The translations under genes and the position numbers were made by a program. Below the pieces are notes generated by a model that saw only the letters and a list, made by a program, of their open reading frames with translations, was not told the DNA's origin and ran no database searches. Of a stretch of DNA of 64,000 nucleotides, positions 44,809-50,366 are shown piece after piece (the stretch's first letter is position 1; every line of letters begins with the position of its first letter). This stretch comes from an uncultured Erysipelotrichaceae bacterium. GTDB lineage: Bacteria; Bacillota_I; Bacilli_A; Erysipelotrichales; Erysipelotrichaceae. The DNA is taken from NCBI GenBank assembly GCA_949744505.1, contig CATJXY010000050.1:1-64000 (forward strand), read 5' to 3'.

Positions 44809-47235
44809 CTATGGCTCTCGAATTATCCATAATGCAGGACGAACTGCTCGAAAAGCATATCTAAAACTTTCTCCCCAATAATCGATTTGACCATCTTTAT
44901 CAACATCTATTGCATATTCTTGATCATAACCAGGTGTTCGTAACCACCAATCACAATATAAATCGTCACTTATCCTCAATTCATTACAATATGGGGTAGC
45001 TTTACATTTTCTTGATGAAATTGAATCAAAATATTGTCGCACTTCTGTTTCGCTGAGCAAAAATATTTTATCATAAGTTGCATTACCCGGATCAGTCTCA
45101 TATTTTGGATTTTTATCATTATAAACTAATGTTAATGCTATTTTTTTCTGTTCTTCTTCAGAAAATGCAGTATCCAAAAATGTTTTGTTTAACCATGTAC
45201 GAAGATTACACTGCTCCCATGTACTTTCTTTTAAAGCGTATTCTTTGTAATCCAGTGCATATTTACTAATAATTAACAATTTCCCATCTCGTTCATCTAA
45301 CACAATCCATTCAATATCTTCTTTATCAGCATATCGATAACCATCTTGCTCATAAGAACCAAAATAAATACACTCTCCTACTTTTGCAACCTTGAACTTT
45401 TCAATTTTATACTCTTCAAAAACTTGCTTTGCTTTTTCCGCACTATCGCGATAATTCCCTAAAGCGATAAGTTCTTCATATCCAGTCACAATATTATTTC
45501 CTTCACTTATCATAGCAACGGCTTTATTATATCTGTCATTCTTGATTATTTCATTCAATCCCAATGAAGATATAATCATTACTACTATAAATATCGTACA
45601 AATGAAAATGATTTTTTTCTTTCGTTTTAAAGCAACCTGTGCTTTTTCAGCTTTAAGTTGTTCTTCAATTTTTAATTCCTCAATACGGTTCTTACAAATA
45701 GTAATTCCATCCTCAGAATCTTTCCACTCTGAAATAGACGAGTAGATTTCAATTGCGCCTTCTAATGAAGCAATTGTATCCTTTTCTTGGTTTTCTATTG
45801 CCAATGAATAAAGTGCATCTTTTCGAATGATTTCAGCTTTTTCAAGACATTCTTTCATTTTTATATTTGCATCTTCAAAATCGTTGATACTTTTAAAGAT
45901 TTCAGCAAGTGTTTTAAAATCTTCTTCTGTGGTGGCAGATTGCATTTGCTTTGTAGCATCTTTATAAATTTTTATTTGACGAGTTTTTTCATTACGATCA
46001 TTAATATATTCTATATACCTATCTAATTTCTTTTTGAATTGTTCATCACCAAAACGAATTGCTTTAAGATAATTTTTTTTATTATCAAAAGGCCTATCTA
46101 GATTTTTTAAATCATCAATTTTTCGACATTTCATTTCTATCATTAATTTATAAAGATAGACCTGAGCATTTTCCGGATCTCGATCTAGTATCTTTTCACA
46201 ATATTCATTAGCCTCTTTCCACTCTTCATACTCTAAAAAGATTTCGATCCTCTTCATCAGTGCCTCCACTGATATATTACTGTCCTCTACTACTGTCGTT
46301 GATTGTACTACCTTGACTTCCTTACCTTCCTCTTTCTCTTCACTCGCTATCTTCTTGATCCCTCTTACCAAATCTTGCATGAATCCTAACTTGCTCATGT
46401 CTTGTGCTTGTAAATGCGAGAACTCCTCAGGCAAATCATATGGATCCATCTCACTATATGCAGGGATCAATACTTTCTTCTCCCCTTGCTTAATTAACTC
46501 TAAGTATCGGCTCCATTCATTCTTTACCCATACTGAATTTAAGTATTCTGCTTTTGTTCCGATGACGACCATTACTTTTGATGTATGCAATGCTGAAAAG
46601 ATACAGGATTCATAGTTCTCTCCTAACTTATTTTCTAAGCTGATCCGTGAGAAAAATACTTTATACCCTTCTTCTTTTAACTCATGATACAGCTCATTTG
46701 CCAAGACCGAATCTCTTGTCCTTTTTCCTTCTTTATCTGTCTCTTTATAACAGATAAACACATCATACGGTTCTTCTTTTTGCGATAAGCTCCATATCTG
46801 TCTTCTGATTTCTTCTATCTCTTTCCCTGATTCTTCATACAGCTCTTTGGATCTCTCATCTGCTTTTTCTATTGCCTTTTGATAATCATGATCTTCCAAG
46901 AGCGATTCTGCTTGCAATCGGTGGATTGTCGGTATCCTTCTTTTTGTATCCGGATCTTCTACATATTCTACTCCATATCGACATAAGACAAGTGACCAAT
47001 AGATTTCTGCATCTTCTGTATCTTCACTCAAGATCTGTTCATACAGATTCATGGCTCGATCATATTCATGATGTCTAAAAAAGTGATTCGCTCGATCAAG
47101 TAGATTTGTTTTTCTTTCATTATCATTTAATTTAGGAAGAGTTTGCTTTGTTCCGCAACTGTCACAAACTCCGATTGTTTCTCCTTCTTTGAATTCCAAT
47201 TTCCCACCACATATTTTGCATTTAAATGATGACAT
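44809..47235 (-). CDS. Zinc ribbon-TPR-TIR-TM-DUF6273 protein
   Basis: An 808-residue multidomain protein. Order: zinc ribbon (residues 6-28, CKIC...CDSC); a TPR-like helical segment (about 40-150); a TIR domain (about 157-290) with YDVFICYKETD at the first strand, SRISLENKLG, and WVKNEWSRY, whose Glu240 matches the catalytic glutamate of TIR NADases; more TPR-like helices (about 310-545); a basic stop followed by one membrane segment (about 567-585, IIFICTIFIVVMIISSLGL); and a DUF6273 domain (about 645-805, YFGSYEQDGYR...IEWIVLDERDGKLLIISKYALD, LRTWLN, FLLSETEV, WWLRTPG). Such combinations are known in gut Clostridia and relatives, but their role is unknown. GGGAG precedes the ATG at 47235. 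Confidence 0.85.
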   Translation of the reverse strand: MSSFKCKICGGKLEFKEGETIGVCDSCGTKQTLPKLNDNERKTNLLDRANHFFRHHEYDRAMNLYEQILSEDTEDAEIYWSLVLCRYGVEYVEDPDTKRRIPTIHRLQAESLLEDHDYQKAIEKADERSKELYEESGKEIEEIRRQIWSLSQKEEPYDVFICYKETDKEGKRTRDSVLANELYHELKEEGYKVFFSRISLENKLGENYESCIFSALHTSKVMVVIGTKAEYLNSVWVKNEWSRYLELIKQGEKKVLIPAYSEMDPYDLPEEFSHLQAQDMSKLGFMQDLVRGIKKIASEEKEEGKEVKVVQSTTVVEDSNISVEALMKRIEIFLEYEEWKEANEYCEKILDRDPENAQVYLYKLMIEMKCRKIDDLKNLDRPFDNKKNYLKAIRFGDEQFKKKLDRYIEYINDRNEKTRQIKIYKDATKQMQSATTEEDFKTLAEIFKSINDFEDANIKMKECLEKAEIIRKDALYSLAIENQEKDTIASLEGAIEIYSSISEWKDSEDGITICKNRIEELKIEEQLKAEKAQVALKRKKKIIFICTIFIVVMIISSLGLNEIIKNDRYNKAVAMISEGNNIVTGYEELIALGNYRDSAEKAKQVFEEYKIEKFKVAKVGECIYFGSYEQDGYRYADKEDIEWIVLDERDGKLLIISKYALDYKEYALKESTWEQCNLRTWLNKTFLDTAFSEEEQKKIALTLVYNDKNPKYETDPGNATYDKIFLLSETEVRQYFDSISSRKCKATPYCNELRISDDLYCDWWLRTPGYDQEYAIDVDKDGQIDYWGESFRYAFRAVRPALWIIREP

Positions 47236-47319
47236 TATTTCCACTCCCTTTTTGATACAAATTAAAAATCAAAAGATTCAGACTCATTAAAAAACATTAA
47301 ATTATTAAATAACTACATA

Positions 47320-50173: not shown

Positions 50174-50205
50174 GAAAAAAAGATGGCGCACATTCGCTCC
50201 ATCTT
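50174..50205 (-). terminator. Terminator of the small-peptide gene
   Basis: Minus strand stem AAGATGG/CCATCTT, with additional inner pairs, then seven T residues. It starts right at the stop codon of the 33-codon ORF. Confidence 0.88.
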
Positions 50206-50305
50206 AAAAATTCAACATATTTAACCCGAAAACGCAGTTCAAAGCTGGAACATCCCCACGAGATACCCCATTTTGGTTTGGGATTTGGATTACTCCTGCT
50301 TTCAT
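50204..50305 (-). CDS. Predicted 33-residue peptide gene, not recognised
   Basis: ATG at 50305 follows AAAGGAG with 8-nt spacing and the frame ends TAA at 50204. The product begins MKAGVIQIPN, continues with a polar middle (QNGVSRGDVP) and ends in a more hydrophobic part containing the only cysteine (NCVFGLNMLNF). There is no signal peptide and no membrane segment. A promoter, an operator-like inverted repeat and a terminator that starts at the stop codon frame it exactly, which is strong evidence for expression. No processing enzyme is adjacent. It could be a regulatory or signalling peptide, a RiPP precursor, or a leader; I cannot assign a function. Confidence 0.65.
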   Translation of the reverse strand: MKAGVIQIPNQNGVSRGDVPALNCVFGLNMLNF

Positions 50306-50321
50306 TATACTCACTCCTTTG

Positions 50322-50347
50322 GGTTAACTTATATTATAATTTTAACC
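50322..50347. promoter_or_regulatory. Operator-like inverted repeat at the small-peptide promoter
   Basis: GGTTAA and TTAACC arms separated by 14 bp, covering the -10 and the probable start site. Confidence 0.55.
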
Positions 50348-50366
50348 TAACTGAAGAAATTGACAA
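50339..50366 (-). promoter_or_regulatory. Promoter of the small-peptide gene
   Basis: Minus strand TTGTCA (50361-50366), 16 bp, TAAAAT (50339-50344). A perfect TATAAT at 50333-50338 is also present but badly spaced. Confidence 0.65.

Follow-up and report, generated by a model that had tools for sequence, protein, structure and literature searches.

A 33-codon open reading frame (ORF) whose stop codon coincides with the start of an intrinsic terminator raises the question of what so short a gene does, and for which of its neighbors. It lies on the minus strand of a 64,000-nt stretch of DNA from an uncultured Erysipelotrichaceae bacterium (herein the window). A sequence-only reading had described it as an unannotated peptide gene with a complete expression cassette; its promoter, AAAGGAG site, 33-codon ORF, and terminator starting on the TAA are all confirmed on the minus strand. 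In the direction of transcription the locus comprises:

51097-50435, minus strand: peptidoglycan-binding protein gene, upstream neighbor of the 33-codon ORF
50430-50415, strand not applicable: cre-like (CcpA) palindrome ATGAAAACGTTTTCAT, 16 bp, 0 mismatches to WTGNNANCGNWNNCAW
50366-50361 and 50344-50339, minus strand: sigma-70-like promoter, TTGTCA and TAAAAT with a 16-nt spacer, 10/12 consensus positions
50320-50314, minus strand: Shine-Dalgarno (SD) sequence AAAGGAG of the leader ORF
50305-50204, minus strand: 33-codon leader ORF MKAGVIQIPNQNGVSRGDVPALNCVFGLNMLNF, ATG at 50305, TAA at 50206-50204
50225..50233, minus strand: GTTTTCGGG, degenerate version of the T-tract element TTTTYNNYGGGGTT of related leaders, possible RNA polymerase pause element
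50205-50180, minus strand: stem AAGATGGAGCGAATGTGCGCCATCTT of the intrinsic terminator, with U-run at 50181-50175; MFE -11.0 kcal/mol, position kept in relatives
50159-50153, minus strand: SD sequence AAGGAGG of the ankyrin gene
50141-49473, minus strand: ankyrin-repeat gene, 222 aa, Pfam Ank_2 E 6.8e-63, first gene of the operon
49463-47394, minus strand: EF-G paralogue of EFG II type, 689 aa, NF009381 902.8 bits, second gene of the operon

As the stem starts at 50205 and the TAA occupies 50206-50204, the stop codon overlaps the stem base. The TTGTCA-16-TAAAAT promoter is present, but by itself the match is no more than chance would give, with 10 such sites in 3 kb against 12.3 expected; relatives carry a -10 such as TACAAT at the matching position. 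The GGTTAA/TTAACC repeat around the -10, also part of the sequence-only reading, exists in the window but is not recurrent in the relatives' sequences as read. The interval holding this repeat (50347-50221, minus strand) also has TTAACCC ahead of the SD, with its complement GGGTTAA close to the end of the ORF; the two may form a long helix confined to this species.

The Terminator Lies within an Ankyrin-EFG II Operon

Two features had escaped the earlier description: the terminator sits inside the ankyrin-EF-G transcription unit, on the same strand, and the cre-like palindrome lies upstream of the ORF. Searched at the DNA level, 272 family genomes gave only short, weak matches, to the terminator half; some of these terminator-like matches were immediately upstream of ankyrin orthologues and thus pointed to the operon. 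An ankyrin orthologue is found in 237 of the 272 genomes, and in most genomes of the family the ankyrin gene adjoins the EF-G paralogue, typically ~10-50 bp apart (9 bp in the window); we infer that the family holding the operon is the Erysipelotrichaceae. A scan of genome contigs with the ankyrin returned mostly unrelated ankyrins.

EFG II paralogues are widespread. The His of DTPGH is catalytic in translational GTPases; the DTPGH of canonical EF-G has become DTPGY in nearly all orthologues examined, and loss of the His suggests that GTP hydrolysis is altered. EFG II was defined by Margus et al. by loss of RGITI, with Ser at its fourth position, and retention of G1, G3, and G4 (PMC3150367). 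The window protein fits this class, with RGMSV in place of RGITI at G2 and the other G motifs kept (GHSQAGKT, DTPGY, and NKMD). Just downstream of the EFG II gene is a gene for an 811-aa protein with TIR_2, TPR-like repeats, and DUF6273 (44809-47244, minus strand), which weakly resembles ThcB4 of Thoeris type III.

A Leader ORF Ending at the Terminator Recurs across the Family

We fetched 160 orthologous upstream regions, many from genomes that look like draft or metagenome assemblies, and applied to 161 regions a rule requiring an SD of at least 4 nt, an ORF of 15-50 codons, and a stop within -20 to +15 of a hairpin followed by a T-run. This layout is present in 149 of the 161 regions (146 with ATG; median length 30 codons), compared with 7 of 240 shuffled regions (3%) under the same rule. 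The recurring order is SD, ATG, a short ORF of divergent sequence, a stop at the intrinsic terminator, and the ankyrin SD. Several of the 12 remaining regions have a leader by eye or with a looser rule, or an uncertain ankyrin start; the leader is clearly absent, with the operon kept, in g11 (L095, L098) and G033 (L124). In Holdemania, three loci (L186, L188, and L189) have ~240 nt extra between leader terminator and ankyrin, which is not seen in other genera.

In 74 of the 149 loci, the window leader among them, the stop codon is placed at precisely -1 relative to the stem, vs. 0 of 240 shuffles; such loci typically end ...TTTTTAAGATGG, which makes Phe the last residue of the peptide. Because TAA or TAG is already part of the terminator consensus, we also shuffled the ORF alone, from ATG to stem. 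With the ATG kept, 28 of 146 shuffled frames would be expected to reach the terminator vs. 146 observed, in a set selected for reaching it, and a stop at -1 is expected 2.4 times and observed 72 times. When the stop position was left unlimited, 113 of 120 non-redundant leaders still ended within -20 to +15 of the stem, 50 of them exactly at -1. It is the arrangement, rather than the promoter motif, that exceeds chance.

These data bear on two other accounts of the region. A terminator standing between the ORF and the ankyrin gene could merely close a small upstream gene, with the ankyrin-EFG II operon using its own promoter past it. We consider this most improbable: terminator and ankyrin ATG are only ~38-40 nt apart, in the window and as the median of loci, the window gap contains no consensus promoter, and the ORF would lack a reason for being tied to the operon in ~55 genera. 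Alternatively, the region could encode a non-coding RNA or ligand-sensing riboswitch with a terminator, the ORF being accidental. The window leader segment folds better than shuffles (z -2.8) and leaders are structured locally on average (mean fold z -1.28), as such an RNA would be; however, the leader region has no Rfam family match, the terminator is the only shared structure, and an accidental frame would not be open to the terminator so far beyond expectation. This account, too, has very little probability.

The Frame Is Kept, the Peptide Is Not

The sequence-only reading had proposed a signalling, regulatory, or modified peptide, and of these the regulatory, translated ORF is supported, since ~55 genera share the start, SD, length, and stop position, and frames remain open far more often than shuffling predicts. 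The 33-aa peptide has no homologue in 60 relatives, plasmids, or phages and no Pfam domain, and peptides at the orthologous position are unrelated between genera, their sequences differing almost completely. Across 17 independent close pairs (the window's genus is represented by one species in the set), in-frame dN/dS is 0.66, mildly below 1. The two shifted frames give 0.90 and 0.95 and are interrupted by stops, with 33 and 41 codon pairs that contain one. Such a pattern is the signature of a frame in which translation has to reach a set end point and the demand on the amino acids is weak.

A signalling, modified, or otherwise trans-acting peptide could claim the complete expression signals, the single Cys, and the dN/dS below 1. 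Without a homologue, with unrelated peptides at the same place in relatives, and with immediate neighbors that include neither an export nor a modification gene, the signalling-peptide reading is not supported, and we give a trans-acting product almost no credence. It had also been suggested that a conserved hairpin without a conserved frame would indicate a non-coding RNA. The outcome of that test is intermediate: terminator and presence of the frame are both conserved while the amino acids are not, a pattern that fits a cis-acting leader peptide.

Composition was compared with that of shuffled leaders at ~120 non-redundant loci. Valine is enriched 1.9-fold, to 14% overall; Trp, Cys, and Ser are depleted. 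No run of codons for one amino acid was found in the leader peptide lists, and there is no conserved arrest peptide among the leaders.

A Ribosome at the Leader Stop May Block the Terminator

The 33-codon ORF and its terminator very probably form an attenuator of some kind for ankyrin-EFG II. As to how it works, direct occlusion of the terminator by a ribosome at the leader stop is the likely mechanism. A precedent is pil1 of Streptococcus gallolyticus, where the state is ON if the stop falls within the hairpin or 4 bp ahead of it and OFF if it falls 39-49 bp ahead, and where losing the leader start lowers expression (PMC3894217). There, as proposed here, the ribosome destabilises the hairpin when the stop is inside the terminator or shortly ahead of it, and no arrest peptide is needed. 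The stop touches the stem throughout the ankyrin-EFG II leaders and the pil1 geometry was shown by experiment; both favor direct occlusion. The two systems differ in that phase-variable repeats set the stop in pil1 and the genes encode pili, whereas the ankyrin-EFG II stop has a fixed position family-wide and the product is a translation factor.

Under this mechanism, transcription would start upstream of the leader ORF. If no ribosome were at the leader end as polymerase passed, the terminator would fold and transcription would end before ankyrin; a ribosome still at the stop codon would cover the 5' arm of the stem and block the terminator, so that polymerase could enter the genes for ankyrin and the EF-G paralogue. 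The signal would be that the leader is being translated, not its peptide product.

In the main alternative, a ribosome stalled within the leader by a drug, uncharged tRNA, or slow translocation frees an antiterminator, as in trp, tlrB, vmlR, and hflXr. Drug-inducible ribosome-protection genes typically have a leader ORF and a terminator ahead of a gene for a translation factor (PMC6851288, PMC6310831), and the valine enrichment would be in keeping with stalling. The leaders, however, offer neither a conserved arrest peptide nor a single-codon run, the stop codon abuts the stem instead of lying well upstream, and an antiterminator signal is absent across 120 leaders and from the consensus fold of 30 leaders, which contains the terminator only. 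The leader pairs with the 5' arm of the terminator no more strongly than shuffled sequence does (mean z 0.06 +/- 0.09, n = 120). We therefore regard stalling as unlikely.

Several structures can be drawn for the window. A 1:2 / 2:3 / 3:4 attenuator was considered as a general mechanism and rejected, as the 2:3 pairing, a possible antiterminator of GUUCCAGCUU with AAGAUGGAGC, is not significant (z -1.1), is not shared, and is not significant across the 120 leaders either. An outer helix around the U-run reaches z -2.5 in the window vs. a family mean of 0.09 (not significant). The possible antiterminator and the long helix UUAACCC/GGGUUAA, both drawable in the window, count against direct occlusion, as do the degenerate pause-like element of the window and the few genomes with the operon but no leader. 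Together, the dN/dS below 1 and the leader structure leave room for sensing at the peptide or RNA level.

In some members of the family, two T-rich elements may make polymerase pause and let the ribosome catch up. TTTT tracts cluster at about -80 and -40 (67 vs. 19 and 51 vs. 13 expected); the signal is weaker among loci outside g32 with the stop at -1 (9 and 6 of 25, control 1). The nucleotide element NTTTTYNNYGGGGTT, ~40 nt before the stem, is common to leaders of genus g32 and of Holdemania-like loci (g36), and the TTTTYNNYGGG element at this distance occurs mainly in these two groups. In the peptide-selected set its codons are almost always NTT and GGG, other Leu/Val and Gly codons being available, and so nearly fixed a choice points to a constraint on the nucleic acid. 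The T-tract element resembles the TTNTTT at -11 to -6, Y at -1, and G at +1 of the NusG pause signature, which further calls for a hairpin 11-12 nt upstream (PMC12288461). The window version is degenerate, being shorter and ~10 nt nearer the terminator, so that pausing in the window is a guess.

What the switch reads is probably how long ribosomes remain at stop codons or, more generally, transcription-translation coupling under poor nutrition. Slow termination or recycling at stop codons is a tentative candidate, attractive because these steps involve factors of the EF-G class and because the layout is fixed at its stop codon. A fuller version, which we think rather doubtful, is a carbon-gated feedback loop, kept family-wide, in which the leader senses ribosomes lingering at stops, and the GTPase-altered EF-G paralogue and the ankyrin protein relieve them.

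Cre-Like Boxes Suggest Carbon Control

Of 120 promoters in the family, 39 carry a perfect cre-like core, compared with 0.1 expected from shuffles. Catabolite control of the CcpA type, acting through this box, is probable for the operon. In the window this box lies ~90 bp upstream of the inferred start, an unusual place for repression. In the sister family, EFG II promoters have a perfect cre-like core in 9 of 19 cases vs. none in shuffles; promoters at loci L289-L307 often carry a cre-like box such as TGTAACCGTTTTCA. Read by eye, the sister-family EFG II genes have neither ankyrin nor leader. As the cre-like core is found there without either, leader and ankyrin appear to have arrived together in one family, and catabolite control appears to be older.

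Relation to Known Systems

In the literature searched, mainly freely accessible journals, we found no description of an ankyrin-EFG II leader. Among described systems besides pil1, tlrB and vmlR of Bacillus subtilis share leader attenuation, an intrinsic terminator, a NusG pause, and a ribosome-acting target (PMC6851288, PMC9226507). tlrB also has a short leader ORF alongside its NusG pause, and its pausing synchronises polymerase and ribosome (PMC6851288). Unlike the ankyrin-EFG II leaders, in which none of these was recognised, tlrB and vmlR have a drug response and a conserved arrest motif, and tlrB has an SD-sequestering hairpin. The rli80-hflXr locus of Listeria likewise has an attenuator with a leader ORF, placed ahead of the gene for a translational GTPase linked to ribosome recycling (PMC6310831), but its ORF encodes 14 aa with an RLR motif, an antiterminator is predicted, and the GTPase is of the HflX family, not EF-G.

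A divergent EF-G paralogue under carbon control is also known from Bacteroides thetaiotaomicron. Its fusA2 product, EF-G2, supports GTP-independent translation and is tied to carbon limitation (PMC6989115, PMC10294740); fusA2 differs in being activated by the regulator BT4338 and in belonging to a different phylum, and a leader peptide is unmentioned in that paper. The parallel suggests that nutrition-controlled alternative EF-Gs evolved separately. While the principle of leader attenuation is known, its family-wide use on an alternative translation factor would be new.

The survey reveals ~150 hidden leader ORFs of a kind that gene callers would tend to miss. It would place EFG II under a switch that reads translation and, likely, under a catabolite switch as well, in gut bacteria that can be cultured, Holdemania among them. 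If occlusion is true, the ribosome reading the leader decides whether the alternative translation factor is made.
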